A stretch of DNA of 64,000 nucleotides from Limnephilus marmoratus (Eukaryota; Arthropoda; Insecta; Trichoptera; Limnephilidae). Each line of letters begins with the position of its first letter. Position 1 is the first letter of the stretch. This document shows, one piece after another, positions 25,458 to 51,499 of the stretch. The notes under the pieces were generated by a model. That model did no database searches and was not told the DNA's origin. It saw only the letters and a program-made list of their open reading frames with translations. Position numbers and translations under genes: made by a program. The stretch lies in NCBI GenBank assembly GCA_917880885.1, contig OU862906.1:58322665-58386664 (forward strand). The letters are read 5' to 3'.

Positions 25458-25724
25458 GGTTCCATGCCAACTCAGAATGAAACCAAATCAGAAACACCTC
25501 AGAAAGGTCATTAAAAGTTATGAAAAAATAATTTTAAAATAGCCGGTAACCCTAACCTAACTTAACCTATTTATCATTTTTTTATATTTTCTTATCATCT
25601 TATGACTATATACAGCCGGTAACCCTAACCTAACTTAACCTATTTATCCATTTTTTATCATCTAAATATAATGACCTTTCTGAGGTGCTTCTGAGTTGGT
25701 CTCATTCTGAGTTGTCCGGTCACC
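25458..25724. mobile_element. Fold-back element T1 with telomere-like core
   Basis: 267 bp flanked by GTTTATTTT (25449-25457 and 25725-25733). Termini are GGTTCCATG and, on the other strand, GGTGACCGG. The arms are inverted (about 25468-25514 and 25666-25715) and made of about three short units built on AACTCAGAA.GA.ACC / AACTCAGAAGCACC / TCAGAAAGGTC. The centre holds two copies of a roughly 40-base block, AGCCGGTAACCCTAACCTAA then CTTAACCTATTTATC (25541 and 25614), with CCTAA repeats. It has the same plan as 46153-46636 and the same termini as 50979-51499. No coding. Confidence 0.85.
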
Positions 25725-25733
25725 GTTTATTTT

Positions 25734-26095
25734 ACCACCTCTAAGCAGACTGATTAGTATTATAAATTCACTGACTCAACGTATATTTGACCTCTTGAAA
25801 TGCTTATTTAAGTATAAAAACATTTCACAAATTATTCAAATATTTTATTATACGTATGACAGTTTGTGCCCAGTGTTTCTCAGCATAGGTAGGTACGATA
25901 TTTTCTTCTTGTCACCCAATATGATTTGCCTTTTATGATATATTACGAAACATAATTTTTAAATCTCCCTACTTAAAGCAAAAGTATTAAAGTGCTTATA
26001 ACGCGCTGCAGCCTTTCCAGTTGTTAAAAGAGGCTTTAACTTTGAAACAACAAGCCTTGCCAGGTCCAGGGGGCGAAAATTCGTTGATAGCAGAA
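25734..26095. other. No gene seen
   Basis: AT-rich, non-coding. It borders the GC-richer open frame that follows. Confidence 0.35.
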
Positions 26096-26097
26096 TA

Positions 26098-26341
26098 ATG
26101 TAACTCCCTGGAGATTTCCGCCTTCAGCCATCCAACCTCCTCACGCCACCCCCTCCTGTCTGACCGCACGGGCAGCGTTTTAACCGACACCGACGCCAAT
26201 GCCAGCGTCGAATTTTCCGGTTCGACGGATGAGAAAAGTACGTCTTTATCAACACATCACAATCCTTTCCGGCAGGCGGCTGCTTTTGGCGTCTCTAAAC
26301 TGCTCCAACACCTTGCGGACAACCTAAATAAAATACTATAG
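26098..26341 (+). CDS. Possible exon, unrecognised
   Basis: A plus-strand frame of about 80 codons has no ATG start. It opens after a TAA near 26095 and ends TAG at about 26341. It is markedly GC-rich at third positions compared with its surroundings. Residues include SAFSHPTSSRHPLLSDRTGS near the start and NPFRQAAAFGVSKLLQHLAD near the end. A CTGGAG/ATT at about 26112 could be a 3' splice site, and AATAAA overlaps the stop. It could be the last exon of a host gene or a decayed element ORF. I do not recognise it. Confidence 0.3.
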
Positions 26342-27810
26342 TGAAATATTTATAAGAACCATCAAGCTTGTTTATGACGCACTGGTGCTTTTATTCAGGT
26401 CGTATTGAATAATCGCCTGGGGAGGAACTTAAAATAAACATGTGAAACTACTTAAAATTGCTTAGAATTACACGGAGGTTAGGGTCTAGCCGAGTTTTTT
26501 GTCAATGCTTTTTTCGAAGATATATTCAATCACGAAATTTTTATTACGTTTAGAGGTACATTTGAAAAAGAAAAAACACTATTGAAAATTTGCTTTGAAT
26601 ATCTATATACATAGATATAGCGGCCGCGAGTGGGGGGAACCCATCAAATCAGGCTGAAATCCTTGGAAATTAAGTGAAGCATGAAATTCAAAAAAATTTC
26701 ATTATAGTATAAATGTAGAATGCTCATGAATCATAAATTGCAAAAAAAGTATTGATTGCAGCAATAGTGAAAATAAAATGGAAAGTGACGAAAAAAATCG
26801 GACATAATTTTGCAATAACTTTGCCCTTTATAATAATTTTAATAAGTGGGGGTACATCCCGTGTAATTTTAATTCTCTTTAATTTAAACTTTAAATGAAG
26901 TGAATCGGATGAAAATTCGATGCTCTACGATTCCAGCCAACTTGAAAAATGTGATTGTGAGAAAAACGCTTGTAAATTTTTGCTTGCAAAAAGCATTAGT
27001 TTTTAAATACTTCCGGCTGTTTAAAGATAATCTGCGATTCCAGGAGCATAAGTAGGCCCTAGACTCCTCGAAGTACTGCCGCTTTTGAAGTTTCTTCATT
27101 TTTTGTGCAGATCGACCCTCCTCTGTACTTTCGAGGCTGCGCCATGCTTGCCGCTTCGTGCGTGCGCTATCGAACATATCGGTTTCAGTTCAGTATCGAA
27201 CAAGTTCAGAATGTTCAAGGTCGAACTTGATGCTATAACTTTTGCAATGTTTCTCCACAAGCAAGATTTTAAGGCATTGGGTGGACCAGACTACCCCCTT
27301 AAGATAATGTATCAGGCCTATTGCACCAATCAATTGTTTTGGGTAATTAAAATTATGGAACTAAGGCGGAACTAACTTGTCCAATGTCTTAAATATATGT
27401 AAAAGCTCGTCCTAACAATAAAAATCTAAATCGCACTTTGCCATAAAAAGACCTTGTGCGTGTACCGAAACCTGTCTGGCATTTCCCCAAAATTGTTCAA
27501 TTACCCAATTCAATCAACGTGTGCTAAAATCTGAACTCATGAAAAAATGTTAAAGGCTGGGTAAAAAAAAAATCCGAATTGAGTAACCTTTTACTATAAA
27601 TTATCAACATTTATCTAATTATCTAAAATATGCTATGCCTAGCTACAATTATTAATTGTGTACTCTAAACGTTATAAAATGCAATTTGTTAAATGACAAT
27701 TAATTCTATTTTTAATTTTTTTAACGATTAGGGAACATTAACACTAATCTACTAAGCATGTGTTTCTTTGCGAAAAAATTATACTATAATTTTTTTCCAA
27801 TTTCTACGGT
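26342..27810. other. No recognised gene; minus frame 26884-27177
   Basis: Mostly AT-rich. A 97-residue minus frame (26884-27177) starts MFDSARTKRQAWRSLESTEE and is rich in Lys, Arg and Glu. Upstream on that strand the frame is partly open as well. It may be a mobile-element ORF fragment; the family is not recognised. Confidence 0.25.
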
Positions 27811-27811
27811 A

Positions 27812-27853
27812 AAAAAAAACCCGACAACAAAACTTTTGTCGGGTTTTTTTTTT
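27812..27853. repeat. Hairpin CCCGACAA/TTGTCGGG with A/T flanks
   Basis: CCCGACAA and TTGTCGGG around an 8-base loop, preceded by nine A and followed by eleven T that can also pair. It looks like a bacterial intrinsic terminator, but in this setting it is more likely a short palindrome, perhaps where two A-tailed insertions meet. Confidence 0.7.
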
Positions 27854-27949
27854 TAGTGATTTTTTATTAATTAATTTATACAACACTTATTTAATCAAAA
27901 TTATCAATTAAACATGATGAATAATTTGATTAAATAAGTAATATATAGG

Positions 27950-28015
27950 TACAATGTGATTTGTTTTGATTTAATTTGATTATGAGTTGGTCACTAAATT
28001 TCTGTTAAATTAATC
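27950..28015 (+). repeat. Dispersed repeat, copy 1 of 3
   Basis: TACAATGTGATTTGTTTT followed by TTTGATT.... and AATT.CTGTTAAA. Related copies are at 34661-34735 and 35715-35790. The family is unknown, about 70-90 bases visible. Confidence 0.45.
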
Positions 28016-28028
28016 AATCAATCAATCA

Positions 28029-29414
28029 ATGAACGAAGGCACGGTACCTGAAATATGGAAAAGAGCCTATGTAACACCAATCCACAAAAATGGTGAAAAA
28101 AATAATGTTAAAAACTATCGGCCGATTTCAAAACTAACAATATTCAGTAAGTTAATGGAAAAAATTGTTTACAAATATCTAAGCCCACAACTGAATCACA
28201 TCATTACAACAAAGCAACACGGTTTTACAAAAGGCAGAAATGTGGAAAGTAACCTCGTTCTTCTTACTGAATTCATTGTCGATCACATGGACAACCGCAC
28301 TCAAGTAGATATCATTTATACAGATTTTGCCAAAGCATTTGATAAAATTAATCAAAAACTATTACTCAGAAAACTTTGGTCATTAGGTATACGTGGTAAT
28401 TTATTTCGTTGGGTTACATCTTATATACTCAAGAGATCACAGGCAGTAGCAATAAAGGGTTTCGAATCAGATTTCAGTGAAATTTCCTCTGGGATCCAAC
28501 AGGGTTCACATCTCGGACCATTATTTTTCATTTTATATATCAATGATTTGGTCAATGTTGTTAAATACTCTGAAATAGAATTATTTGCTGATGATGCCAA
28601 GCTATACAAGCCAATAAAAAGTCAAAACGATTGCCTCAATTTACAACATGATTTAAACAATATATTTACCTATAGCCAACAAAATCAACTATTTCTAAAT
28701 GTCTCAAAATGTCATCATATTACCTTTTCAAGAAATAAAAATAAAACATTATTTAATTATTCTATAAATAACAACAACATTGCAACAGTCTCAGATATTC
28801 GTGATCTTGGAATAACCCTTGATAGTAAACTACAATATAACCTTCATATACAACAAATCACAAAGAAAGCTGCTAAAATGTTAGGTTTTATCATGAGAAA
28901 CACAAAACTTTTTAATAGTATCAACGTCATTAAGCAACTCTACTTTGCCTACGTACGAAGTCATTTGGAGTTTGCGTCAGTTGTTTGGTCTCCATTTTAT
29001 AAAATCCATACGAACAAAATTGAAGCAATTCAAAACAAATTCCTCAAATATCTTTGTTACAAGTCATAAGTCGTAAGATTTAATAATTATGCAGAGGCAG
29101 CCTCATACTTTAAAATTGATTCATTGAGTGTACGAAGGCATCATAAGGATGCAATATTCCTGTATAAATTAGTTAACAATAATATTCAATGCCCAGAGTT
29201 GCTAAATAAAATTCAATTTAATGTACCTGCGCGTACAACACGCTCTTCTGTCCTGTTCAGGGTTGATCAATGCAAGACAAACTGCAAGCAAAATTCTTGT
29301 CTGAACAGACTATGCAATAGTTACAATAGCATATTATTCAAGGTGGACATTTTCAATTCCGAACCTACCAAATATAAGGGGTACATAAAAGAGTATTTCT
29401 CTGATGTTTCATGA
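28029..29414 (+). pseudogene. Jockey-like LINE J2 reverse transcriptase, one stop
   Basis: A single frame of about 461 codons interrupted once, by TAA at 29067-29069, and otherwise open to 29414. The first 346 residues hold the RT: NYRPIS (29-34), TDFAKAFDKI (98-107), GIQQGSHLGP (155-164) and the catalytic box as FADD (186-189). The thumb and the C-terminal region follow, and after the stop residues such as SVRRHHKDAIFLYKL and PARTTRSS. The N-terminal endonuclease is missing, so it is a 5'-truncated copy starting at about 28020. Only one inactivating change in the RT implies a fairly young insertion. The 3' UTR continues to about 29690. Confidence 0.9.
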
Positions 29415-29690
29415 ATATGTTATGTGTCTATGTTTCTATCGTTTATCTTTAATTCTGTTATGATTTGATTTATATGTACAATCTGGCTTCTTATGGTTAC
29501 CAATGTATTGATATTTTATGTTTTATGTAAATTTTAGTTTTATATACTTAATCTTTTGTTTTATAAATTTTTTTATCTCATGCTGCTTTATTATAAATTT
29601 ATTATTTAATTTTTTTTATTATGCTGTTAATCAGAGGTAAAGTCACATGGAGGAAATCCATAATTGATTTTATTTTGGCTATACAAACAT
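29415..29690 (+). repeat. J2 LINE 3' UTR
   Basis: AT-rich 3' UTR following the J2 stop, with a stem-loop-like GTTAATCAGAGGTAAAGTCA...ATGGAGGAAATCC segment near 29625-29670, as in other jockey-type tails here. It abuts the inverted-repeat element at 29692. Confidence 0.5.
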
Positions 29691-30364
29691 GTAGTCCAGT
29701 AAACGAATGGTCCAAAAGGAGGTGTAGAGTGCGTGAGCAGGAACCTAAGCGATTCTTTCAGGACTTGTTTAGGATGCTCAGGGTGTGAACATACTAAAAG
29801 TCCTGATGTCTAGGTGGTGAGCTAGGGGGGGAGGGGGGGGGGGGAAGGTCCCGATTTTCGGTTTTCCATTTATATCTCAAAAATGGTGCGTCACAGAGGA
29901 AAACTTTTTTAGAATAAGTAAAAGCTCATAAAATTATCTACATCTTTTATTCTATACGTAATTTTGGAAATCCCAGCCGTTTTTGAGTTATACGCTCCAC
30001 AAATGTCAATATTTTCGAAAAAAATCATTTTACCTCACATTTTTCGTCAAACATTCCTTCATATCGTCTAAAATATTCATCCAAGAAAGAAATTTATTTG
30101 AAAGAAGTTGTAAATAATTTAATTATCTTCTAGAATATTTAAACATATGTGAGTAAATCTCTAACCAGTAAATATTTACAGTAATTTTAAGTTTTTTCGT
30201 AAAATGTCGTCATTTTCAGAAAAAGCTGTTTTTTCTAACCAATTAAGACGGGTTTTTTCTTCATGGGAAATTCCTTATTAATTTTTGCACGCAAGAAAGC
30301 AGGTAAGTGGTTCTCAAACAGATGATTAGTGGAATTCATTTTATAATCATTATTATTGTAATGG

Positions 30365-30802
30365 GTGATTAGGTTAGTCGTCGGAGATGCTACAATAACG
30401 TGCTACAATGCTGTTCGAGTTGGTGAAAAGGCAATGAATGCGATAGTGGGCTTGACATTCTCAGACATCAAGTTGTCCTGCAAAGATCGGGCATTCCCAA
30501 TGTCTTCTGTCAGCTCGTCGATAAAAATTCACGATGAAAAGGTTGCAGTTGACCCAACATTGCTGTTTCAGCGGATGTGTATAAGCAAACGATCTGATGA
30601 GGATTTGATGAAATTCTTTGAGTATGAGTTGGCCCCATTTCCCTTGGCACTGTTCAATGAAAGTGGGATGCGAAAGACAAATAAACCTGTTCTGTATAGC
30701 TCATTCGAGCCTACCAAAAAAACTGTTCTACTCTCTCAGATGAACATAGTTGTGGACGGAGGATTTCTATCATATTATATCGACGCTGGAAAGGAAGACT
30801 GA
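30365..30802 (+). pseudogene. PIN-like nuclease ORF, N-terminal part
   Basis: A 145-residue frame with VDPTLLFQRMCISKRSDEDL, FEYELAPFPLALFNE and VDGGFLSYYIDAGKED, then a stop. This matches the N-terminal part of an uncharacterised protein family that I recall as common in insect, mollusc and cnidarian genomes, where the same polypeptide continues into the segment at 32333-33574. The first about 97 codons lie in the terminal repeat and recur inverted at 33584-33880. The insertion at about 30801 cut the gene. Confidence 0.6.
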
Positions 30803-32330
30803 CTAAAACGCCACATCGGGTGAATATGAGTTATATATTGCCGAATTTTCCAGATGGTGGAATTTTCCAGATTACCGGAAATCTCCAATATTTACGATCC
30901 CCACGAAAAAACACAGACGAATTTGAACCGATGGCAAAATCTACTGCAGTTGACACATCAATTATTAATGAACGACACTATGAAGGTTTTGAAGATATCA
31001 ACTATTAAGGAGAAGAATCATGTCCCTTAAAAACCCAAAGGAATGATCTAAAGCAAATACGAGCTCTTCTTAAAAAACTGAACAAAAAATGGCACTCAAA
31101 AGCCTCAGAAATAAAAAGCTTTTTGTCCAAATATTTTTTTTGCATTTTAAGCCGATGAAACCATTCGTACTTTTATTTTAGAAACTACTTTAGATATTAG
31201 CCAAAAATTCTTACACTATACGCTGTCCAATACTTACTTTGGAGTTTCAAAGTTGGATATGAGAGGCAAGACAATTGCAGCTAATAAAACAAAAGCCGAT
31301 CTATTACAGTCCGCAAGAGATTACATAAAAAAACTTTTTTGAAATTAATAGCTGAACCTTTCAAGCTTGTTTTAATTTATATTAAAATTGTAGGCCTGCA
31401 GAGTGTAGGCCATTCATTTTTATTTTTTCATATTTTAATGGCTTTCACCCTTCAAGGGTTAAATAATATACTACGTCGTTATTTGCTCATCGTAGTATAT
31501 ATATATTTTTTTTAAATAAGGCTTCTTAATTTCAAATTTATATTGATTGAAAAGTATAATTTATAGGCCATTAATCCCCTTTTTCCATTTTTTCAGGCTT
31601 TACCCTTCAAGGGTTAAATATTATTTAATAAATCGTTATTTTCTCATCGTAGCGTATTATAACAAAATACTATATTCTTTATTTCAAATTAAAATTACTG
31701 AAAAGTTAAAATTGTAGAAAGCAACTTTATACAAATGTTTTGGCGATCGAAATATAATAAAATCCGTGTTTTTACTATTTTTTTTCTTTTTTTAACCAAT
31801 AAAATACCCCAATGACCATAGTTTAAATATGTATTCGTCATGTCCGTAAGTCTTTATGTCGGTCAAGAAATCACTTACGGTGGATCATTAGCCATTATTG
31901 CTTGGAATATCTATTACTTTTCTAATGATTAGCTTTTTTTCCTCACTACATTATTGGTACATTTGTCCGTAGGGTATTTTTCCTCTCGTATTAATGTGTA
32001 GTACAAAGAGTTTAGTTCTTCATCCTCGTGTGAAAATAACATAAACATGCACATTAGTCTTTTTTCCTGCCTAAATTTTTAGGCACTTTTGACTAAAGCG
32101 CCACTATCTTCGGAATTATTAATATTATTAAAAATATATGTATTACAATTGATTAGGTTTTATAAAAGCATTTATAATTTTCAAGCGGCAACAAAATCAG
32201 ATAATCTTTTTCAGAGTTATGATTTTTTTAAACTTTCAAACAGCTCTCCTGAACATTTAGCATAATGGCGCTTTAGCCATTTATCCTTTCCAGCGTCGAT
32301 ATATATTATCTATATTATACAGAGTAATTT
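30801..32330. mobile_element. Insertion splitting the nuclease gene
   Basis: Begins TGACTAAAACGCCAC (30801). About 38 bases across this junction (TATCGACGCTGGAAAGGA then TGACTAAAACGCC) recur inverted at 32268-32308, so inverted sequence bounds the insert; GACTAAAGCGCCAC occurs again at 32088. Inside are degraded coding scraps (YTLSNTYFGVSKLDMRGKTI at about 31210-31270) resembling a known insect element protein, a 62-residue frame (30820-31008), and two I-clade tail pieces (31409-31690). It is read as a decayed DNA transposon. Confidence 0.5.
31409..31690 (-). repeat. Tandem pair, I-clade LINE tail-like
   Basis: Two imperfect direct copies of about 160 bases (starting TAGGCCATT at 31409 and 31566). 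Each contains, on minus, AACCCTTGAAGGGTGAAAGCC-type sequence matching the 3' tail of the I-clade LINE at 13067-13090, then TCATCGTAG. No coding. Confidence 0.6.
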
Positions 32331-32332
32331 GA

Positions 32333-33574
32333 CAAAAAGATGCCTCCGTTGCCGCAATTTGTGATCGTTATATCACCTATGTCAACCACCACTATCCTGG
32401 AATGACTCGCACTGTGGTATTTGATGGGTACGCAAATCCAGTCAATAGTTCGAAATCACAAGAACAGATGCGACGATACAGACTGAGAAGGTCAGCAGAC
32501 ATCAATTTGACATGGAACAAATCAATACCCGTTAAACAGGAAGATTTTTTATCCAATCCTACCAACAAAAGTAACTTCATCTTCTTACTACAGACAAAGT
32601 TTCGGGAGAATGGGATACAGACTCTTCAGGCCACCGATGATGCTGACGTCCTTATCGTGAAGACTGCTGTGAAACTATCCTTTCACAATTCTGTGGCTGT
32701 CTTTGGTGAGGATGTGGACCTCACTGTCCTTTTGATTGCTTCCACTCCTCCCACCTAAGATATTCTGTTGCTGAAACCCGGACGAGGGAAAACCAAAACA
32801 TTGGCACTGTCCACCAAAGAGATGCAGCATCGTGGATTTGAACACATCATATATTTACATTCATTTACCGGATGCGATACAACGTCTGCAACTTTCAGGA
32901 GAAGCAAGGTGGGCTTTTCAAAATTGTACTTGGAGTCAGAAATGATCAAGCAAGCGGCAATGATCTTTTACAACCCCTCCTCTACTCACGATGAGGTTGA
33001 AGAGGCTGGAAATAAATGCTTCCTGAAATGGTATGCGGCGCCAAAAAGACAGACCTCCCTTAACCAGTACCGCTCCCAATCGTTCACAAGGTCCGTGGCA
33101 AATATGAAGCCTGACATCAGCTCCCTCCCTCCAACAGAGAGTGCAGCTAAACAGCATTCCCGGCGGACATACCACCAAGTTCAGCAGTGGCTCGGGATTG
33201 AGCTGTCCCCTGAAGATTGGGAGTGGAAACACGAAGGAGACACCCTGGCGCCAATTACAACAGAAGATCCTCCAGCACCGGAGGTCCTTCTGAAAATGAT
33301 ATTTTGCCGCTGTACCAAGGATTGTGCAATTGGCAAATGTGGATGCCGAAAAGCAATGCTGACCTGTTCTGCAGCGTGCCTTCACTGCCAAGGGAGATGC
33401 CTCAATAGCGTGCCTGTTGCCGAGGACGACGATGAAGACGACGTAGAGCCCTTTCAGCAAGAACATCCACCACTGAGAATGACGATGCCATGGATGAACA
33501 ACGCTTGCCAGGACCCTCACGTCCAAAGAGGATATGAAAACGTGATTCCACATAAAGTTGAGAGTGCAACATGA
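32333..33574 (+). pseudogene. PIN/FEN1-like nuclease ORF, C-terminal part, one stop
   Basis: One frame from 32333 to 33574 with a single stop at 32756-32758. In order: DASVAAICDRYITYVNHHYP, TRTVVFDGYANP (about 32399-32440), KQEDFLSNPTNKSNFIFLL, ATDDADVLIV and GEDVDL (acidic pairs as in PIN/FEN1-type metal sites; relatives usually read GEDTDLLVLL), HSFTGCDTTSATF, QVQQWLGIELSPEDWEWKHE, then a cysteine-rich end CRCTKDCAIGKCGCRK...CSAACLHCQGRCLN and an acidic tail. It probably once made a metal-dependent nuclease with a zinc-binding C-terminus, carried by the element. The nuclease fold is an inference. Confidence 0.65.
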
Positions 33575-34544
33575 TGTTATTGAGAACAGTGCCAAAGGAA
33601 ATGGGGCCAACTCATAATCAAAGAATTTCATCAAATCCTCATCAGATCGTTTGCTTATACACATCCGCTGAAACAGCAATGTTGGGTCAACTGCAACCTT
33701 TTCGTCGTGAATTTTTATCGACGAGCTGACAGAAGACATTGGAAATGCCCGATCTTTGCGGGACAACTTGATGTCTGAGAATGTCAAGCCCACTATTGCA
33801 TATCTATGCCTTTTCACCAACTCGAACAGCATCTTAGCACGTTATTGTAGCATCTCCGACGACTAACCTAATCACCCATTACAATAATAATGATTATAAA
33901 ATGAATTCCACTAATCATCTGTTCGAGAACAACTTACCTGCTTTCTTGCGTGCAAAAATTAATAAGGAATTTCCCATGAAGAAAAAACCCGTCTTAATAA
34001 TTTGGTAAGAAAAAACAGCTTTTTCTGAAAATGACGACATTTTACGAAAAAACTTAAAATTGCTGTAAATATTTACTGGTTAGAGATTTACTTACATATG
34101 AATATATATTCTAAAAGATAATTAAATTATTTACAACTACTTTCAAATAAATTTCTTTCTTGGATGAATATTTTAGACGATATGAAGGAATGTTTGATGA
34201 AAAATGTGAGGTGAAATGATTTTTTTCGAAAATATTGACATTTGTGGAGCGTATAACTCAAAAACGGCTGGGATTTCCAAAATTACGTAAAAAATAAAAG
34301 ATGTAGATAATTTTATGAGCTTTTACTTATTCTTAAAAAGTTTTCCTCTGCGACGCACCGTTTTTGAGATATAAACGGAAACCCGAAAATTGGGACCTTC
34401 CCCCCCCCCCCCCTCCCCCCCTAGCTCGCCACTTAGACGTCAGGACTTTTAGTATGTTCACACCCTAAGCACCCTAAACAAGTCCTGAAAGAATCGCTTA
34501 GGTTCCTGCTCACGCACTCTACAACTCCTTCCTTTACTGGACTA

Positions 34545-36680: not shown

Positions 36681-36682
36681 GT

Positions 36683-37650: not shown

Positions 37651-37651
37651 G

Positions 37652-37652
<1 letters not shown>

Positions 37653-40550: not shown

Positions 40551-40552
40551 CG

Positions 40553-41481: not shown

Positions 41482-41616
41482 AGACGCTTCGATTCAAACT
41501 TTGGTGTAGATGATAACTAACAAATCGAACCATTTGTTTTTCTTCTCTCTTGATTAGTTTAAATCTTATTACGATCAAGCGCAACGTATTGTGTAAATAT
41601 GTCACTTGTAGACAGT

Positions 41617-41838
41617 TTAACGCACTGCAAACTCATCTTTGAACTTATCCTCTAATATGCCAGCAATACTAGAAGTGCTACTGAAACTGCACTCAAGTTT
41701 TAACTCTTGTCTCGACACCACCGAAGATGAAGCATTGCTTTCAGCAGCTGTTTCTTTCAATTCTTCAGATCTTTGTTTCCATTTTAGAGAACTTTCTTTG
41801 ACCTTTTCTAATTTCTTGTCGATTGAGGTCATAATCAT
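41617..41838 (-). pseudogene. Transposon ORF, middle fragment
   Basis: Minus frame of 73 residues (SLKWKQRSEELKETAAESNA...), Lys/Glu/Ser-rich. It lies between the N- and C-terminal pieces and probably belongs to the same ORF. The rest of the middle region appears deleted, so the element is non-autonomous. Confidence 0.45.
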
Positions 41839-41944
41839 CTTACGTTCTCATCTTTGATCGATGAGAAACGCTCTGTCTTCCGAAATTTTTATCAAATTCA
41901 AAGCGCTTGCATGTGCAATATCAAAAAGTTTGTCTAGTTCTTTT

Positions 41945-42286
41945 TTAAACAAATACTCTCCTTTTTTGTGCTTCAGAATTTTTTCCTCTATTTTTATTCA
42001 ATTGCAGCCAGTTCTTAAGAAACTTAATCAGTTTTTCAATGCAGTGATTTTGTTGTCTGGTCGGAATACTAGATTTACTCCATACTTTTAGAAGTTCTTG
42101 AATAAGTACATGCGCGGAATCTTTCACATTTTTGGAATCATTTAATATGTAGTGATAACGGAGTAAAACTTGCCAAAGAGTAGGATGTTGGTTAAGCCTC
42201 ATCAATGGCTCAATATCTCGAACCTCAAGTAGAAAAATTTCGTATTTTTTTCGAGTAGATGAACACATTTTACTACACTGATTCAC
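41945..42286 (-). pseudogene. Transposon ORF, N-terminal part
   Basis: Minus frame of 113 residues, including LMRLNQHPTLWQVLLRYHYI, LIQELLKVWSKSSIPTRQQ and a basic end (NWLQLNKNRGKNSEAQKRRV). It resembles the N-terminal segment of the same element protein (an LPT...VLRYFF-like box, then a helical EIW..A.IPT box). Separated from the next piece by a frameshift. Confidence 0.5.
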
Positions 42287-42573
42287 TTCACAGTCTACTA
42301 AATAAGTATCAAATACTGTTCAAATTTGTCTATAAAACTCTTCAGTAGTTTATTTTAATATTTATTTAATAGTTTAACACACAAAACTGACCTGTAGCAA
42401 AAAGTAAAAATTAAGCATTTTACCCAAAAAATTTAAAAACAACACTCGATTGAGCACCCCTTTCTACTTAAACTATCTCGCTGAAATTTTACTATGTTTT
42501 TTCTATGAATACGTGTAACAAATTCACGGGGTGGCCTAATGAAAAATAATAATAAAAAATTTTGGACCACCTT

Positions 42574-42840
42574 ACTCTAGATGTACAATATGCTCTACAT
42601 GTAAAATATGCTTTAGATGTACAATATGCTTTAATGGTATACTGTGCTTTAGACTCTAGATGTACAATATGCTCTACGTCTAAAATATGCTATAAATGTT
42701 AAATATGCTCTACATAGATGTACAAAACGCTCTACAATATGCTCCTAAAGTACAATATGCTCTAGACTCTATATGTACAATATGCTCTACATGTACAATA
42801 TGCTTTAGATTTAGATGTACAATATGCTCTAGATGTGGAA
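42574..42840. repeat. 18-bp satellite, right part
   Basis: About fourteen units of TGTACAATATGCTCTAGA with variation (TGTAAAATATGCTTTAGA, TCTAAAATATGCTATAAA). The period is 18, with a few irregular insertions. Continuous with the array at 40553 before the transposon inserted. Confidence 0.88.
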
Positions 42841-43312
42841 ACAAGTGCGGTCCTGAAAAGTTGCTATATTCACGCTCCGATAAATACTTGGTCTATTCCC
42901 GGCGGGACCATCGATGAGTATTACGAGTACCGCCAGCATTATAAAGTATTGAATGTGGTAATAGTCCTTGCAAAGTACTCTTCACTTAACAGGATTAGTG
43001 TTCTAATTCCGTTAATTCTGTTAGCCAGGGCTTAGTGCAGTCCGCAGGACCTCTCCACTGGTCAGAAGGATTACGGGATCCTACCAAGATACTGGGCACA
43101 CTGGTAGTCACAAGATAAATTAAATTCCTTTTTATTAATCTCTTGAACCTTTGAAAAGTATCTCCTTTAGGATCAAAAAATGTTGTAAACCTTATTTCAG
43201 AGTTAACTTTGCAGATGCTGGCAGATGCCTACTAAAATTATTCATACATATTAGTTTTGCATTATTTTTTAAAGTTTTCTGTGTCTTTCGCGGGTGAAAG
43301 TAAATTCTTTAG
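42841..43312. other. No gene seen
   Basis: Non-coding. Confidence 0.4.
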
Positions 43313-44165
43313 GCCCTGAGGAAAGTAATTTCCCTCAGTGTATGTGTCATCTTAGGGGATGCTCTGTGAAGGGTTTTTTTATGGAAAGGAAGAGAGGAAG
43401 TTCTGGGAAGGAAAAATGTACGAGTGGTAGCTAGGAATCTGGGGGTCAGTGTGTTCAGGAATACGTGTAATACGTATGATATAATAATACGTATGAAATA
43501 GTCCCTCCAACCACCGTACAAGGCGATTGATCAAAAGAGTCCGGCTGAAGAGGTCAAAATGCATCCCTCAATCAGTCTCTCTCGATCCGGCCCGCCACGC
43601 AAGACCTCTATCAATCTCACCCCATGAACCCAGGTACCATTGCTAAGTTTCCAAACATAGCCAACCACTTTGGTCGACCTATAACAGAGGTGATGATTTT
43701 TTTTTTTTTTACATGAAAACCGCACAAGAGTCCCAACTGCTCCCGTCTGGAGCCAGTGAGACTATGGCATCCCCAATTGGGATATGTTGTGAGGCTGAAG
43801 GAAGTGGGGAGGGAAGGAGATAGGTAAGAGGAAGGTGGGGTACCTGGCTGTTCAGATCTGGTCACCAAACACGGCGAAAGCCATTTCAGGCAACGTTTCA
43901 ATTCTGAATTGTGGTCTTACACCAGGGCGATACTGAGAGTATCCTCCACTCTGGAACGTACCGCAAATATGCTATACATTATTTTAAATGAATAAATTGT
44001 GAAATACACAAATTAATCAAATAAAATTTATTTGCCACGCCGGGATTCGATCCCGCGACCTTCGGAATGCGAGTCAAGCGCCTTACCGCTGCACTCTGCC
44101 GGCCGTCGATTATCCAATAAATGGTTCCCGAGGCGGCGGTAACTATACCCGCCTCCCAACTTCTA
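43313..44165 (-). repeat. Family B copy split by SINE A
   Basis: A minus family B element in two parts: 43313-43696 (J1-type hairpin tail GGCCCTGAGG..., body to the GGTCGACC segment) and 44108-44165 (TTATCCAATAAATGGTTCCC, GAGGCGG...CCGCCTCCC). The SINE A at 43697-44107 inserted between them. TGATGATT / TCGATTAT at the joints are consistent with a short target duplication. Its own poly-A is not visible. Confidence 0.8.
43697..44107 (-). repeat. SINE A, full length, nested in family B
   Basis: Poly-T at 43697-43710, tail ACATGAAAACCGCACAAGAG, body, then the tRNA-like head 44035-44107, with B box GGATCGAATCCC and head start GACGGCCGGCAGAGTGCAGC on minus. A good reference copy, about 411 bases. 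Confidence 0.9.
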
Positions 44166-44716
44166 GTTGTTTAATCTCTTGTTAATATTAAATATATTTT
44201 TACCAAAATCTTGCTTTTCACAAAATTTCATCATCAAAATTTGAGAAAGTACTGCATTTCTCTGATTCTCCTATAACGAATCGGTGTTATAAACTGGATC
44301 AGCAGGAACTTGAGTCTAGAACTGAAGATGAAGTGAGATATTTCGAGATCGGGAGATTTCTCGTTTCTCGGCTACACAATTTACACAAAATATTTCGTTT
44401 GAACCGACTCCGAAGGTACAATTTTAAAGTTCTATGTTTTAATCTATTAAATAAAGCAATAAGTTGAATAATTTGACATCTCACAAATCACAAAACCAAA
44501 TGAAATAGAAATATGTCTGAAAAAATATCTACTCATGCCAATATCAATTTTTTACGCTGGAAATCCATTTAAGCTCTAGTACAAGCGAGATTTTTATCGG
44601 ATTAAGAGATCAATTTTCTGTTAGGGTTGGAATTGCAGTCAAATCACTGTCGGAAAGAATATATGTGTATTTAAGGTTTGTAATAAAACCCAGTGGCATG
44701 CAACTTCTTTCAACAA
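44166..44716. other. No gene seen
   Basis: Non-coding. Confidence 0.4.
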
Positions 44717-44720
44717 ATCG

Positions 44721-45121
44721 GTCCTCGTGGTCGAGGGGTAAGACTTCAACTAGCAATCCGGAGGTTGCGCGTTCAAATCCCGGCGAGAGCAGGTAAATTT
44801 TGTTTGATTAATTTATGTTATTTCGCAATTTATTAATTTAAAATATAATATAGAACATTTGCGGCACGTTTTCGAGTGGAAGATAGTGTCAGTATCGCCC
44901 TGGTGTAGGACCACTATTCTGAAATGAAACGTTGTTTGAAATGGCTTTAGCAGTGTTTGGTCACTAGATCTGAAAAGCAAGATACTTCCCCATTTTCTCT
45001 TTCTCATCTCCTTCCCACTGTCTTCAACCTTACAACATACCTCAATTGGGGATGCCATAGTCTCACTGGCTCTAGACAGTTGGAACAGTTGGGAATCATG
45101 TGTGATATTCTAATAAAAAAA
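44721..45121 (+). repeat. SINE A, full length, plus copy
   Basis: Head 44721-44793: TCGTGGTCGAGGGGTAAGAC as A-box side, B box GCGTTCAAATCC at 44769-44780. Then the TTTGATTAATTTATGTTATT linker, the body (GGCACGTTTTCGAGTGGAAG, AGTATCGCCCTGGTGTAGGA, TTTGGTCACTAGATCTGAAA), a tail resembling TTGGGACTCTTGTG and an A-rich end. The head is tRNA-derived but not a functional tRNA. Different copies carry different anticodon-loop sequences. Confidence 0.88.
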
Positions 45122-45237
45122 GGAAAACTAAATTATTGCTTTCATGTAGGTATGCATCAAATAATTTGCGCACTAACACAATTAAGTGATAAAAAAAACT
45201 AATTGCAAGTTGAATTTTATGTCCGGTTTTGAAAAAA

Positions 45238-45267
45238 TGTTTAGAATTAATAAATTAATTCTAAACA
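45238..45267. repeat. Perfect 14-bp palindrome
   Basis: TGTTTAGAATTAAT-AA-ATTAATTCTAAACA. AT-rich, no known role. Confidence 0.6.
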
Positions 45268-45359
45268 ATTAATAAATTAGCAGAAATTTACTTTATGAGA
45301 TAATTATTTACACTGATTTAACTTTAAAAAAAAACAAAACAGAGTGTGCATTTCACTTT

Positions 45360-45475
45360 CTGGATAAATCCTATAGATGTATGTGTCTCTTTGTAGTGTC
45401 GCTATTTTGCGTTTCATCAAGTTTCAAATGACAACGGCGCTAATGAAGTTTTCACTTCAAAAAGTTATGAAAAAC
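45360..45475 (+). repeat. Dispersed repeat D2, copy 2
   Basis: Same-orientation partner of 38298-38420 (AGTGTCGCTATTTTGCGTTT, ACAACGGCGCTAATGAAG). In both places it lies about 240 bases beyond a SINE A element. Confidence 0.6.
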
Positions 45476-46143
45476 TAAACAAATTTGGAACCATATCATT
45501 ATCGCACTCTAACAAGTAGGTCCATAAATGTAAAAGAATAAATACCCTCAGTTTTATATTATCATTTCATCAAATAAAATTTCTCCAAACACGAGAAAGG
45601 CATAGAAAAAGCAGAGACAAGTGAATTAATATGGTACAATAGATTTGTGTGCTCACTGCCAAGTAAATGTCGATGGGCTGTAAGCAATCAAGCGAATTGC
45701 GGTGAATCAGGAGTGCTGAAACGTAATTATATTATAAAGCTTCCCTTGATCCAAGGCGCTCCCCACACCGTCTCTTGTCCCCTGCCATGCTTTTTACCTA
45801 CTATATTTCTTTCGCTTCACTGTCACAGACGTTCGGAATGATTTTTATTAAAGATTTCAGTCGATAATTTTGAAAACATGTTCATTCAAACTTTGCATGG
45901 AATTAGCGACAAATTACTGCTTTCTAATATTCTGACGCTTTCTTGTATTATTCAGCAGAAACACATATTTTTATTTCCTTTTGCCCATGTCACGACTAGG
46001 TATTGCAAATGTCAAATTATTTTTCTTAAATATTTGTGTGAATATTTTTACACAGTATATTTTCTAACATGGTTTGGTTAAATTACGCACATGAAACATG
46101 GTTTGGGTAAATTACGCACCCGTTTAGAAACTATAAATTACTG
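45476..46143. other. No recognised gene
   Basis: Short frames at 45647-45841 and 45878-46081 show nothing recognisable. GGTTTGG.TAAATTACGCAC is repeated at about 46070 and 46100. CTTTCTAAC (46144-46152) is the left duplication of the next element. Confidence 0.35.
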
Positions 46144-46152
46144 CTTTCTAAC

Positions 46153-46636
46153 GACTCCAGATACTAATATCTACAGCCTGTATGTCGGACGAATATCTAC
46201 AGCTCATATGTTGGACTAATATCTATGAACTTCAGAGTGAGGACTAATATCTACAGAGCTAAGGTCGGACGAATATCTATGACGGTCCCAGGTCCCAGTG
46301 GTGACTAATATCTATGGATCGTAGGTTGAACTAATATTTACAGAGGGCAGCTGAGCAAGAGGTTGTACGGAAAAGCATAAATTACTTCAATTACGTAATA
46401 ACTAACCTAACCTAACCTAACCCAACCTCTGCCAGTGCTGTAGATATTCGTCCACACCTTGGTTCTCATAGATATTTGTCAGCAGTTTGAGCCGTAGATA
46501 TTCGTTCTCACTTTGGTTCCCATAGATAAAAGTCAGCCGTTTGAGCTGAAGATATTCGTCCTCACTTTGGTTCTCATAGATATTAGTCCGATTTGTTCAG
46601 TTTTAGGAATTCCTGTAGATATTAGTAGACGCCTCC
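46153..46636. mobile_element. Fold-back element T2 with telomere-like core
   Basis: 484 bp flanked by CTTTCTAAC (46144-46152 and 46637-46645). The left arm has seven units built on GGACTAATATCTACAG (variants GGACGAATATCTACAG, GGACTAATATCTATG). The right arm has seven inverted units built on TAGATATTCGTC / TAGATATTAGTC. Between them is CTAACCTAACCTAACCTAAC then CCAACC (46402-46427). Spacers between units differ from arm to arm, so the arms match by unit rather than base for base. GGTTGTACGG beside the core is shared with T3. No coding. Confidence 0.85.
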
Positions 46637-46645
46637 CTTTCTAAC

Positions 46646-47160
46646 TACTAATTCTGTTATCTTGCCACGTGTCATCATTGTTTCTCTTAAAAATACTACT
46701 AGAGTTGTTTGAATAATTTTTCCTACGTGAGAATTGAGTACAGGATTTTTCATGCACATGATTTTAAAACTACGCATCTGATTTACGACTTATTACTATT
46801 TTCTGCATACAATTTTTGGAATCCTGGTTCTTAATTCCACTATCGCCTATGCAAATTAACCACCCGTTTAAGTAAAAATGTTTTAATCTACTATTATATA
46901 ATAATTTAAATACCATTTTTGTCACTGATCAATTCAAGATAACCAAATTCAATATTCTCTCTGTATTTTGACAATCGGCTTAATATGAAAATATTATATC
47001 AAAGAGAAGAAATACTCTGCTTAGAATCTATTTTTGTTCAATATTGATATTCTTATACTTTTGGGGGCTTTGATATAACCAACATTGGCTACCAAAGTCT
47101 AAAACATTAAAAAATAATAATTTCAATTGATTCATTATTTTCACTTCACGGACACTGTAT
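46646..47160. other. No gene seen
   Basis: AT-rich, non-coding. Confidence 0.4.
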
Positions 47161-47440
47161 TTTTTTTTTTTACATGAGCTCCACACAGGAGGCCCTGAGG
47201 AAAATAATTTCCCTGAGGGCCAATGTCATCTTTGGGGATGCTGTGTGGAGGGTTTTTTTTTAGGGAAAGGAAGGAGAGGAAAGTTATGGGAAGGAAAAGG
47301 GTTTAAGGGGTGGGTAGGAATCTGGGGTTCGGTGTGTCCTGGTCATCAGACGTAGACAAATCTCATCCCATTAACCCGGGCACCCCTGCTAAATCACCAA
47401 ACGTAGCGAACCACTTGGGGTGACCTATGGCAGAGGTGTT
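47161..47440 (-). repeat. Family B copy, minus
   Basis: Poly-T, ACATGAGCTCCACACAGG, the J1-type hairpin (GGCCCTGAGG/CCCTGAGGGCC), GCATCCCCAAAGATGAC-type tail on minus, and the body to the TGGGGTGACCTATGGCAGAG segment. The 5' end is truncated. Inverted with respect to the copy at 47722. Confidence 0.85.
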
Positions 47441-47721
47441 GTGTATGTGTTTAGATTTGTCTCTTTTGTTGCTTAATAGTATTGTCACTTTATGAAGAGC
47501 CAAGGCCAAAAAAACCAAGGTAAACAGTTAATATAAACAAGGTTGTGTTGCGTTTGAAAACTAGTGTTGGTCAGAATTGAGGTCAAATAATTATAACACC
47601 AATTTTAACATTTCGTAATAGTGAAACGACCGATTTGCGTAGACACGCCATAGACTGGTACAAAATTCATAAAAATTAAAACATTATTATCAAACAGCGC
47701 AAAATTTACATAATATACCCA

Positions 47722-48345
47722 ATTTGGGAGGCGGGAATGGGTACTGCCGCCTCGGAAACCTTTATTGGATAACCAACACCTCTGCCATAGGTCACCCCAA
47801 GTGGTTCGCTACGTTTGGTGATGTAGCAGGGGTGCCCGGGTTCATGGGGTGAGGTTTGTCTAGGTCTTGGAGGCGGATGACCAGGACATACTGAACCCCA
47901 GATTCCTACCCACCCCTTAAACCCTTTTCCTTCCCAGAACTCTCCTCTCCCCCATTTCCTTAAAAAAAAACACCACACAGCATCCCCCAAGATTTTATTT
48001 TTTTTTTTTAATTTTTTTTTTTTTTTAAGTATATATAACAGGCATGGTGCCCAAAAAATTATATACATGTATGTTTAAACATAGTGATAACGAAAATACA
48101 TAGTATCGAAAATGATAATATTAACATAACATAACAAATAAATGAAATGATAATAATAACAAAAGATAGTAACAAAAGTAATTAAGCTGAGGTGAATGAC
48201 AAGTAGGAATGGGTAAAAGGTAAGTACATGGTAGGTAAATGTTCATAAATGTTCATAAACAACAAATGTTCATAAGATGACGTAAGCCCTGAGGGAAATT
48301 ATTTTCCTCAGGGCCTCCTGTGTGGAACTCATGTAAAAAAAAAAA
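47722..48345 (+). repeat. Family B copy, plus, with insertion
   Basis: The longest 5' end of family B (TTTGGGAGGCGGGAATGGGT, CCGCCTCGGAAACC), body, C-rich stretch, then GCATCCCCCAAGAT. There an A/T-rich 285-base insert interrupts, and the tail resumes GATGACGTAAGCCCTGAGGG...TGTGTGGAACTCATGT plus poly-A. Confidence 0.85.
47994..48278 (-). mobile_element. A-tailed insert within family B
   Basis: Begins with T-rich sequence (poly-A on minus), and AAGAT is duplicated at 47989-47993 and 48274-48278. About 285 bases counting one duplication, no coding. ATGTTCATAA is repeated three times near its right end. A short 3'-end retroelement insertion of unknown family. Confidence 0.7.
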
Positions 48346-48850
48346 ATACTCAAGATTAATGAAATTGTGGACTCTATTGTAAGCATCTAGGAATTGAGCA
48401 TTTTTTACCGCAAGCAATCTCTTTTCCTGAACGTTTCATATAATATATTTGTCATTTCCAGCATTAAATCCCGGAGTTGAAGTCATGGTATTTTGCAAAA
48501 TTGTTATAATTGTATAACGGTATAGTAATTAAAATTATAAGCATTTAGAACATCTAAATCTATCTGGATTAGATAGAGATTGCCAAGATTTTTATCTCAT
48601 GTTAATTGGTCTTTTAGCAGTTGATAGGAAAAATGTTGAAAAAATTTTTTACCTCTAGTTTCAGGTCGGTTTTCACAAAATATTTTTCGACTATATAAAA
48701 TAATATAACTAATCATACAAAATTCGATTGTGGGTCTGCCCGTGATTGTAACTCTGGTTAAATGAAATCGGAATTTATATTTAGAATTGGAACTGATTGT
48801 CAATAATTCAGACAAGTGATAATATCACACTTAAGATATAAGACAGGAAA
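48346..48850. other. No gene seen
   Basis: AT-rich non-coding. Confidence 0.4.
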
Positions 48851-49725
48851 TTATATATATATTTTATTTTTTTTATATATATTTTTATTTTATTTTTAAT
48901 AATAAGGTTTACATGGTATTTACATGATAATTTTACATCTCAGGTTTTTTTTACTACCCTTCCATTAAAAGCACTTGCTTGTGTATGGAAGGGGAGTGTA
49001 CATAAATGCTATTAGTTATTAGTTATACAAGTTAGTACTTAAATAATTCATTGTACATAAATATATGTGAGCTGCAGTATTTATTTTGATAAAGGTGTGT
49101 ATTTAAAAAAAAGAAAGAATGTTATGAAAAACATAGGATATTTTTGTAAGATTAATAGACAGTAGTTTTTTTCTTAAGAATATTTTTAAAATGTCTCTTG
49201 ACAGAGAGCAGAATTCGGGTTTTATCATTAATGCTTCTGATTTCTTCTGGTAGACGATTGAAAAAAGTTCTTCCCTGGTAAGTGTAATGATGCTGTGCAA
49301 AAGACGTATTTAGTTTTGGGCATAGAAAAACATGTTTAAGTCGAGTTCTGTTTTCATTTAAAAATGGATATTTATCTTTTTCTTTTATAATTTGAATTAA
49401 TGAATTTTTAATATATAAATCATTAAATGTTGGTACTTGAAATTCTTCAAACAGGCGTTCTGTTGGGTAGTCCCAGGATTTTTTTAATATAATTTTAATA
49501 ATTGTTCTTTGTATAATTTCAATCGGAAGAAGGTTACATTTATACGCGGATCCCCAACTAATAATAGCGTATTTTAAAGTGGATTGAACTAAGGCATAGT
49601 AGATTAAATATAGATTTTTTATCGACAGAAAATTTCTAATTCTTAAAAATATATATATTAATTTTCTGATTTTGTTTACTACATGACATATTTGTTCCTT
49701 CCATTTCAGATTTAAATATTAATTG
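48850..49725 (-). pseudogene. Jockey-type LINE 3' end
   Basis: A minus frame (with breaks) reads YYALVQSTLKYAIISWGSAY, IIQRTIIKIILKKSWDYPTE, RLFEEFQVPTFNDLYIK and RTFFNRLPEEIRSINDKTRI, the thumb and C-terminal part of a jockey-type RT. The 3' UTR (to about 48850) has hairpin-prone GAAGGG...CCCTTCC sequence. Truncated upstream at about 49725. A different family from J1 and J2. Confidence 0.8.
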
Positions 49726-50481
49726 TCATTTTCAAAATTACAACTGATGTGTTCAGAATTTCAGATAAGCAATAAGTTTCTACCTATAATAATGATATAA
49801 TATATTTTTTTAATCAGAGATTATTAGGGGTATGGTATGGGTAATCCACAATTAAAATATCCCGTAATGTTTTGCGGGCCTGCGATAGTTTTAGCAAATA
49901 TTTGTAGAATGTTCATAATATTTTGTTTATTAATTTTAGATGTAAACATAGAGCTCTTATTCCCTTATTCTTTGTTACGGTAGGCACCGTCATAAATCAA
50001 GCCGAACAGGTACTGTAACGAACATTCTCAATTCAAAAACGTGTAAGCGACAGAACAGCCTCCGTCGGCATTACGGCGGTCTGCTTTTCAAAATTTACCG
50101 ACAAATTAGATAAGAGGCCGCATAATATTCAGCAGTGGGTATGGTTTAAAAATAATGGAGAACATGTTTAAAAATAAAAGTAATGTTTGACTTTAATGAA
50201 GGATTATTTAAGTTAGGCATTTAAATTGATACGACTTAATTCTTCAAATAAATTATTCTTTGTTAGAGTCCTTGATTCATATTCCCGAATAAGTTATACT
50301 CTCCCATTTCAAATTTCCATACATTAAAATAAGCCTTTTTTTGTTTATCAATAAATTAGTGAAACCATAATTGACAACTACGGAGAGAACAGTATTATTA
50401 TAGCGCCTTGTTTAGAGAGTAACTTCCAGAGCCTGCATTGTAAATATTTTGTAAAATAATGACAATAAAATAACAGTATTT
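49726..50481. other. No gene seen
   Basis: AT-rich non-coding. Confidence 0.4.
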
Positions 50482-50790
50482 TTATTTAACTTTATTATAT
50501 ATCCTTAACAAAACGGTTTCGGTTCGACCTAAACCTTCATCAGAGGTGAATAAAATATATTGAATAAAACACAGAGTTACAGAGTATTTAAATGAAAAGT
50601 AGAAGACGGAGAGAGAGAACTTTGGTGGGGAGCGAGGGGAGGTTACTAAGAGGGAGGGGGTAAAATTAGGCGTGGGGAAGGGAAATATGTGAAAAATGGG
50701 ACAGTTTGACAAATCTAACTGTTTAATTTTAGTAAATTGGTTTAATTTATTTTTAATGTTTTTTTTTTGTTTCAAGAGCTTCTAGATTAT
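50482..50790 (-). pseudogene. PLE C-terminal tail with hammerhead overlap
   Basis: On minus, NNLEALETKKN leads into a 97-residue frame (50482-50775) ending in a hydrophobic and Ser/Phe-rich tail, the segment after the GIY-YIG endonuclease in Penelope-like elements (compare 59780-60000). The frame runs straight through the hammerhead core, coding TSDEGLGRTETV there. RT and most of the endonuclease are missing. Confidence 0.65.
50510..50543 (-). ncRNA. Hammerhead ribozyme motif (PLE)
   Basis: On minus: CTGATGA (complement of 50537-50543), stem II AGGTTTAGGTCGAACC, then GAAAC (complement of 50516-50520). The stem III side reads CCGTTTT instead of CCGGTH, so activity is doubtful. Confidence 0.55.
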
Positions 50791-50814
50791 TAACTTATCT
50801 CACGATCATTATTA

Positions 50815-50940
50815 AGGCGCAGACATGTTCCATGAGGCACATCCCCTGATGAAGATTCAGGTTGAACTGAAACCGGTTGGTTAAGGATATATAATCAAGT
50901 GGAATTAGAACAACGTTACTTTATTGTCAAAAACTTAAAT
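50815..50940 (+). mobile_element. PLE terminal repeat, plus
   Basis: A second PLE end facing away from the one at 50482-50560, with a hammerhead core at 50846-50879 and GTTAAGGATATATAATCAAG shared in inverse with 50490-50510. No coding. Confidence 0.65.
50846..50879 (+). ncRNA. Hammerhead ribozyme motif (PLE)
   Basis: CTGATGA (50846-50852), stem II AGATTCAGGTTGAACT (one mismatch), GAAAC (50869-50873), ACCGGT closing stem III, then T at the cleavage position. The core matches the consensus. Confidence 0.65.
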
Positions 50941-50978
50941 ATATATATACCCACAAAGTGTTTGCTACATGTGAAATT

Positions 50979-51499
50979 GGTTCCATGACAGTTCATCCTG
51001 CGACAATTCATCCGGCGACAGTTCATCCTGCGAAAGTTCATCCGGCCGACAGTTCATCCTGCCGACAGTTCATCCTGCCGACAGTTCATCCCGCCGACAA
51101 TTCATCCGGCGACAATTCATCCTGCCTGATTATTTAGAAGATTTTTCTTCAAGTAAGTATGCAAAGAGGATATACGGCCGTACAACCTAACCTAACATAA
51201 CCTAACCTAACCTAACCTAACCTATTTAGTAAAAATATTTTTACAGCGCATTTCCACTCAAGATGCCTTCAGATATAAGTATATCGATTTTGGTTGTACG
51301 GCCGTATATCCTCTTTGCATACTTACTTAATAAAAATCTTCTAAATGATTAGGCAGGATGCATTGTGGCCGGATGAATTGTCGGCCGGATGAACTGTCGG
51401 CAGGATGAACTGTCGGCAGGATGAACTGTCGGCCGGATGAACTGTCGCAGGATGAACTGTCGCCGGATGAATTGTCGCAGGACGAATTGTCGGGTCACC
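50979..51499. mobile_element. Fold-back element T3 with telomere-like core
   Basis: 521 bp flanked by GTGAAATT (50971-50978 and 51500-51507). Termini GGTTCCATGAC and, inverted, GGTGACCCGAC match T1. The left arm has nine 15-17 bp units of CGACAGTTCATCCTG/CCGG type (50985-51125). The right arm has nine inverted units (CAGGATGAACTGTCGG type, 51352-51492). Inside the arrays, a further inverted stretch (TAAGTATGCAAAGAGGATAT, ACGGCCGTACAACC; 51152-51186 with 51294-51330) surrounds a core with seven to eight CCTAA repeats (51184-51227). No coding. Confidence 0.88.

Follow-up and report, generated by a model that had tools for sequence, protein, structure and literature searches.

Three foldback elements with a telomere-repeat core

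The window analysed here, a stretch of 64,000 nucleotides from Limnephilus marmoratus (C1:58322665-58386664 of a 1.63 Gb genome in 67 contigs), contains three elements, called E1, E2 and E3, each of which consists of inverted arms around a (CCTAA)n core and is flanked by target duplications (of 9, 9 and 8 bp, respectively). CCTAA repeats also open the C1 sequence itself. We consider it probable that these are foldback DNA transposons which carry telomere sequence, and that this sequence was used as a landing site by a TRAS-like retroelement. The features of the three elements, in window positions and with strand where assigned, are:

25449..25457, E1 left target duplication GTTTATTTT, 9 bp
25458..25724, + strand, E1, foldback element (non-autonomous) with ends GGTTCCATG (left) and GGTCACC (right)
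25468..25513, + strand, E1 left arm, degenerate ACTCAGAA units (arm alignment)
25551..25569, + strand, E1 core copy 1 (CCTAACCTAACTTAACCTA)
25624..25640, + strand, E1 core copy 2, from the duplicated centre
25669..25714, - strand, E1 right arm, inverse of the left arm (arm alignment)
25725..25733, E1 right target duplication
46144..46152, E2 left target duplication CTTTCTAAC, 9 bp
46153..46636, + strand, E2, non-autonomous foldback element, ends GACTCCAGA and (reverse complement) GGAGGCGTC, then shared TACTAATATCTACAG units
46402..46428, + strand, E2 core (CTAAC)n, 5.4 units
46637..46645, E2 right target duplication
50971..50978, E3 left target duplication GTGAAATT, 8 bp
50979..51499, + strand, E3, foldback element (non-autonomous) with ends GGTTCCATG (left) and GGTCACC (right)
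50987..51190, + strand, E3 left arm, composed of GACAGTTCATCCTGCC units (14-16 bp each) and an inner unique part, the last bases overlapping the core start
51184..51224, + strand, E3 core (AACCT)n, 8.2 units
51289..51491, - strand, E3 right arm
51500..51507, E3 right target duplication

The elements and their duplications were found exactly where an earlier reading of the window from its letters (the sequence-only reading) had placed them, and its statement that a (CCTAA)n core lies on the plus strand of all three was borne out: exact matches to CCTAACCTAA occurred eight times in the window, all within the three elements and all on the + strand. One other 10-base rotation of the CCTAA repeat was present outside the elements, near 52009, and a 15-base core search with one mismatch allowed gave 11 matches in the window relative to none in 100 shuffles. 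The core of E1 was short and imperfect, and the E1 centre (AGCCGGTAACCC...TTTATC, window 25541-25650) was present twice, relative to once in all 20 copies of the family that were fetched from the genome (see below), every one of which had a single core.

All three elements showed asymmetric outer motifs of 7-9 bp followed by tandem units shared between the inverted arms. Arms of tandem units had been proposed for each element, which was correct for E2 (detected tandem periods of 26, 28 and 54) and E3, whereas the E1 units were degenerate and did not form a clean array. Likewise, the elements had been taken as unrelated, which applied to E2 with its different ends but not to E1 and E3, which have the asymmetric ends GGTTCCATG/GGTCACC in common, giving two end types. 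The best inverted-arm scores around the cores were 77 (E1), 82 (E2) and 342 (E3), relative to a median of 22 and a 95th percentile of 34 for 200 random window centres, although the top five of these centres scored 79-300 owing to other inverted repeats in the window. The predicted single-strand DNA fold of E3 was a long hairpin (z of -35.5 relative to 100 shuffles), with the core unpaired in the centroid and a few core bases paired in the minimum-energy fold. E3 and its arm pattern had no match in viral and phage collections.

Dispersed families, target duplications and empty sites

Each of the three elements belongs to a dispersed family. Genome searches with E1, E2 and E3 produced 999, 2,884 and 1,113 candidates, respectively; the best 40 were scored in each case, and 20 copies per family were fetched from these. 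At least two consecutive exact CCTAA units were present on the left-arm strand in 20/20 fetched E3 copies (TTAGG in 0/20), a core of at least two units in 20/20 E2 copies, and a core matching at 10/10 bases in 18/20 and at 9/10 bases in 2/20 E1 copies; as a point on the other side, the family queries contain the core, so that a result of 20/20 leans to core-bearing copies. The E3 array was 17-142 bp long (20 copies and the window copy, one variant base per unit allowed), with length changing mostly in 5-bp steps, while the E1 family was 187-206 bp long in the 11 copies for which both ends were found by rule. The median difference was 2.4% among nine copies of E3 subfamily A (window copy included) and 5.1% among 21 of the E2 family. 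The right border of the array differed between the E3 subfamilies A, B, C and D, and the left border differed in B. In L037 and L039, both of subfamily C, another dispersed repeat was located beside the telomere array, as a second kind of centre.

Target duplications were present in 16/16 testable E3 copies (in the other 4/20 an end lay outside the stretch or was unrecognised), in 19/20 E2 copies and, by rule, in 11/20 E1 copies, several of the other E1 copies being without a right arm or having a mutated right end. For a fixed pair of ends, such a duplication would arise by chance with a probability of 0.00135; in E2, the left end was allowed two positions. The duplications were of the 8-10 bp (mostly 9) expected of a foldback-type Mutator/Phantom element. 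For 50 copies (16 E3, 20 E2, 11 E1 and the 3 of the window) the flanks were joined across one copy of the duplication and compared with all fetched DNA and the window. Empty paralogous sites, in which a related repeat ran gap-free through the junction, were found for 11 of the 50: five E3 copies (L030, L034, L037, L042, L047), two E2 copies (L061, L067) and four E1 copies (L074, L076, L084, L087); the insertions were therefore precise. Left out of this count were the self-matches L053, L057 and L063, as well as L046, L058 and L075, which had a gap at or near the junction or were from a copy without a duplication. Empty sites for E2 and E3 copies were supplied by the repeat family of a reverse transcriptase (RVT_1) open frame at window 3719-5365 (-).

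The arms could also be satellite DNA with accidental boundaries, given that they have tandem units and that a tandem run of element ends is present at C1:25581147-25581708. This was rejected and is extremely improbable, as precise ends, duplications and empty sites were found in all three families. Nor did most of the copies fetched with the core-containing queries lack the core or the duplications, the other outcome that the sequence-only reading had named as contrary to it: across the three families, the core was present in 60/60 fetched copies and duplications in 46/56 judgeable ones. The run at C1:25581147-25581708 (L094) had four GGTTCCATGACAA ends at a spacing of about 180 bp, as short hairpin elements in tandem, and resembles an incipient satellite derived from a foldback element.

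An autonomous foldback element with a Phantom-type transposase

Matches to MULE transposase above the cut-off were found at 97 places in the genome, 67 of which showed an open frame of 476 aa. Two copies of an autonomous foldback element, L109 (with L114) and L110 (with L113), were 99.8% identical over 3,390 bases and carried, as read by eye, 9-bp duplications (TGTCTATGG and TTGTAGAGT, respectively). The outer motifs of L109 and L110 were GGGAATGG on the left and (reverse complement) GGGTCTAG on the right, both adjoined by the same GACGTTTCTACGCC units, about 15 bp long, and the encoded protein had FLYWCH and MULE domains, the combination given as the Phantom signature in the available text of PMC3169594. 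Solved structures gave no match for the MULE protein. This autonomous foldback-type Phantom MULE family is abundant and apparently young. Together with the 8-9 bp duplications, asymmetric ends and Tm1-like arms (see below), its presence in the genome upholds the MULE/FB-like relationship that had been offered as a possibility.

In our proposal, E1, E2 and E3 would be non-autonomous members of the Mutator/Phantom foldback DNA transposons, on which a MULE transposase would act in trans, reading the asymmetric 7-9 bp ends with the adjoining units and leaving the 8-9 bp duplication. One result speaks against this proposal: at 7 of the 97 MULE places, read with 1-3 kb on either side, none of the MULE frames had GGTTCCATG or E2-type ends. 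CCTAACCTAA was absent from the two autonomous foldback copies read. The 476-aa MULE family was tried as the partner of E1-E3 and rejected, as ends and arms differ. The sequence-only reading had suggested looking for an autonomous partner with the same termini; at the seven MULE places read, an element of the same plan was found, with other termini. In L117, one of the five further MULE places among the seven (L111, L112 and L115-L117), GGTTCCATG was the end of an independent E1 copy flanked by an 8-bp duplication (TTTATTTT), and in L116 GACTCCAGA was not followed by E2 units. An E3-like arm without the GGTTCCATG end was observed at L110:4423-4581, outside the autonomous MULE element and some 1 kb from its right end.

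Among described elements, the closest in plan is Tm1, a Mutator/Foldback element of root-knot nematodes. Its outer motifs are asymmetric and 7 bp long, its inverted arms consist of tandem units of 13-15 bp, and its duplications mostly measure 9 bp; non-autonomous copies exist beside an autonomous form with a Phantom-type transposase (PMC3169594). The Tm1 end motifs (CGGTTAA / CCTACCC) and unit (CGATTCAGTATCCGC) are unlike those of E1-E3, some Tm1 elements hold a histone hairpin between the arms, and the main text makes no mention of telomeres (PMC3169594). The autonomous Phantom copies L109 and L110 resemble E1-E3 in their outer motifs, shared units of about 15 bp and 9-bp duplications, and differ in the ends and units themselves, in coding for FLYWCH and MULE domains and in having no CCTAACCTAA. 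Tetris of Drosophila virilis is likewise a foldback element with internal tandem repeats and 8-10 bp duplications, from the length of which, and from earlier suggestions, its authors assign it to Mutator; the available part of its description contains no telomere core, and the likeness is one of description, not of sequence (PMC4079207). Rehavkus shares 9-bp duplications, long inverted repeats and an internal minisatellite with E1-E3 and, by the part of its description available, differs in a PHD-finger transposase and in having the minisatellite before the 3' inverted repeat (PMC6446971). In the open-licence literature, as represented by titles and the starts of abstracts, no description of foldback transposons with a telomere-repeat core was found.

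Distribution and origin of the core

The 12-base left end GGTTCCATGACAH followed by a non-G, which excludes E3 itself, occurred 2,393 times, relative to 59 for a control. Every fifth of 100 listed GGTTCCATGACAH places was surveyed by the end alone, giving 20 places, all on C1, many of which were by eye diverged E1 relatives. A CCTAA-sense core of at least 9/10 was present within 350 bases at 11/20 of these end-selected places (TTAGG sense, 0/20), relative to 8/400 random stretches as background. The core is thus widespread in the superfamily with the GGTTCCATG end, has one orientation and is dispensable; universality of the core was rejected. The conserved telomeric core of the sequence-only reading accordingly holds for copies fetched with core-containing queries and not for those selected by their end. 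Instead of the 'exchangeable arms' of that reading, E1 and E3 are better described as a superfamily with fixed ends and diverged arms, and E2 as a separate family.

Weighing against a general core, 9/20 end-selected places were below the 9/10 threshold, two of them at 8/10 (in one of the nine, L108, the end may be a chance match). Two of the 20 places, L089 and L104, had E3-like arm units without a core, and L097, a diverged E2 relative, had only CCAACC at the core position. In a random sample of the genome (20 stretches of 10 kb, 200 kb in all) two GGTTCCATG places also lacked a core (L019 with 6/10 and L026 with 8/10). Because related copies and the autonomous foldback element lack it, the core seems unneeded for mobility. 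We propose that many E1/E3-type subfamilies, and E2, would have inherited the core as a passenger located in the loop of the hairpin, its single orientation presumably reflecting descent. In E1 the core is short and nearly fixed, and in E3 it varies mostly by 5-bp steps.

Alternatively, the core could be functional in the element, for example in binding of telomere proteins, as a pairing site or as a protector of the hairpin loop, and be kept by selection. Its presence in all 20 fetched copies of each family, its retention in E3 subfamilies that differ on both array borders, the orientation of 11 to 0 in end-selected copies and its unpaired state in the predicted centroid fold all fit such a role. 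Selection for function is nevertheless quite improbable in view of the nine end-selected places below threshold (less L108, should its end be accidental) and of two autonomous copies without a core in a family that is abundant, and descent alone accounts for the single orientation. A telomerase that added the core at hairpin breaks, several independent times, would explain why the right border of the array differs in A, B, C and D and the left border in B, and telomere repeats are inserted at breaks in vertebrates, according to the available text of PMC8537989. Such repeated addition is unlikely, however: both orientations would be expected and one was seen (11 to 0, and 20/20 in E3), and deletions together with the retroelement insertion described below account for the differing borders as well.

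A third alternative is that the core is an ordinary 5-bp microsatellite which arose by slippage from AACC-rich sequence, its origin unlinked to telomeres. The inner arm tips of E3 read AACC, the diverged E2 relative has just CCAACC at the core position and the array length varies mostly in steps of one unit. On the other hand, AACCT is an uncommon repeat (16 two-unit matches in the random sample and the masked window, relative to 237 for AAAAT), yet it is common to E1-, E2- and E3-type elements. A microsatellite origin is possible, if somewhat doubtful, and would concern the origin only, as the array has the telomere sequence and is apparently used as such by a retroelement.

A probable telomere-type retroelement in the E3 core

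In E3 subfamily D (L038 and L040) an insert follows directly after the telomere array; the L038 insert terminates in poly(A), followed by CCTAACCTAACCTATTTAG and the right arm. A search with this insert gave 196 candidates, of which 40 were scored (all at 98-100%), and 12 further copies were fetched (14 in all). The insert started directly after the array in 12/12 of the further copies, and the E3 right side was reached in 7/12 (L121, L123-L127 and L129), while L128 diverged and L118-L120 and L122 ran into a second unit of about 337 bp; further on in L119, the insert was followed by poly(A), an array and the E3 right arm (L130). The 5' junction read ...AACC in 14/14 copies, with a single-base variation of the first insert bases in L126 and L129. 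Poly(A) followed by CCTAA was found at the 3' end of 8/14 D copies, and also in L130 and in L131.

L131 is an element located at 16 kb in the C1 telomere; its final 28 nt are those of the insert, and poly(A) separates them from CCTAA. The 3' end of the insert equalled the L131 tail over 24-28 nt in the nine copies compared, relative to 13 nt for the longest match anywhere in the random sample of 200 kb. A search with the 3' part of L131 gave 92 candidates, 40 of which were scored. A match of 88% or more over 100 bases or more was reached by the 28 best rows; among these, 19 were at most 150 kb from a chromosome end, although such end zones make up 0.55% of C1-C30, and all 19 were in telomeric sense with poly(A) before CCTAA (7 on the + strand at starts, 12 on the - strand at ends); eight others were interior and one was on a small contig. 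The 12 weaker rows, shorter or less alike, were divided into nine interior and three near ends, one of the latter in opposite sense. Interior L131 3' parts were located at C2:46647969, C5:37683958, C9:4113666, C12:33432683, C16:24972251, C23:16105622, C26:8067729 and C28:20807241.

L131 thus combines a location at chromosome ends in one sense with poly(A) followed by the array, and the insert shows the C/T insertion point of the TRAS type. In Bombyx, the insertion point of TRAS lies between the C and the T of the CCTAA strand, and the poly(A) of TRAS, like that of L131 and the D insert, adjoins CCTAA repeats; the D insert also starts after ...CC of the CCTAA strand and in the same sense (available text of PMC7265360). 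The D insert differs in being short and located in interior foldbacks, most TRAS/SART copies being telomeric (PMC7265360). From the junctions, the tail and the distribution we infer that a TRAS-like element used the foldback core as its target at least once, and that the remnant was spread by DNA transposition: a telomere-specific TRAS-like retrotransposon would have targeted the core in one E3 subfamily, and a shortened copy (units of about 337 bp, the last 24-28 nt and poly(A)) would then have spread with the DNA transposon. The sequence-only reading had offered a replication or pairing role for the core as a possibility; the data suggest that the core served as a landing site for a telomere retrotransposon.

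Several observations weigh against this. The link between the D insert and L131, and with it their identity as the same element, is suggested by 24-28 nt, poly(A) and the target site, and the 206 bases read of one telomeric copy of the L131 element do not show the body of the insert. The 40 scored D copies, among 196 candidates, were all more than 700 kb from contig ends, and a single insertion may be the source of all of them. When all 40 scored L131 rows were counted, 22 were near an end, 17 interior and one on a small contig, and the near-end rows included 21 in telomeric sense and one opposite (41 bases, C6).

If this reconstruction is correct, the elements would be portable decoy telomeres, that is, telomere-type target sites carried inside chromosomes and accepted by telomere retrotransposons, the resulting hybrid multiplying by DNA transposition; retroelement sequence would thereby escape the telomere without targeting the interior itself. 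We regard this view as somewhat more probable than not. E3 subfamily D would be a two-step hybrid mobile element, for which a SINE (short interspersed element) inside a rat interstitial array is a partial precedent (available text of PMC8537989). A telomere-type retroelement in the core suggests that such an element can select a short array in the chromosome interior as its target; the available text of the SART/TRAS paper raises interior targeting as a possibility, not as a rule that was seen (PMC7265360).

Telomere-type arrays in the genome

Interstitial telomere repeats are usually credited to chromosome fusions or break repair. For one vertebrate class, the TERC-ITSs, transposons seem uninvolved in dissemination, according to the available text of PMC8537989. 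Array starts of the form VAACC(TAACC)3 numbered 4,637 in this genome, and the E3-type context RTWC preceded 1,485 of them, about a third, a rough share only since the count covers one of five start phases. Within 100 listed RTWC-context starts, 94 read GTAC or ATTC, as in E3. DNA transposons thus appear, by this four-letter context test, to have carried arrays to some 1,400 sites, and transposition has probably spread telomere-type arrays to more than a thousand; on the other side, the figure of 1,485 depends on a loose four-letter context rather than on copy-by-copy reading. The 200-kb random sample contained two CCTAACCTAA clusters, neither within a foldback element by eye. Transposon-borne arrays bear on how telomere-probe signals and putative fusion points are read.

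Other features of the window

An inverted repeat at window 30438-33801, with arms of 218 bp that were 97% complementary and 2.9 kb apart, enclosed an open frame of 268 aa, which had no Pfam match. Other inverted-repeat elements were located at 43745-45077, 47157-48349 and 58164-58635; a simple scan of their outer borders gave no convincing 8-9 bp duplication, although 8-mers of low complexity occurred at 47157-48349 and a match of 12 bp near 58164-58362. In addition to the RVT_1 frame at 3719-5365 (-), a second one was present at 28029-29069 (+). Tandem arrays unrelated to the elements were found at 42575-42836 (units of 18-43 bp) and 18489-18674 (units of 25 bp).

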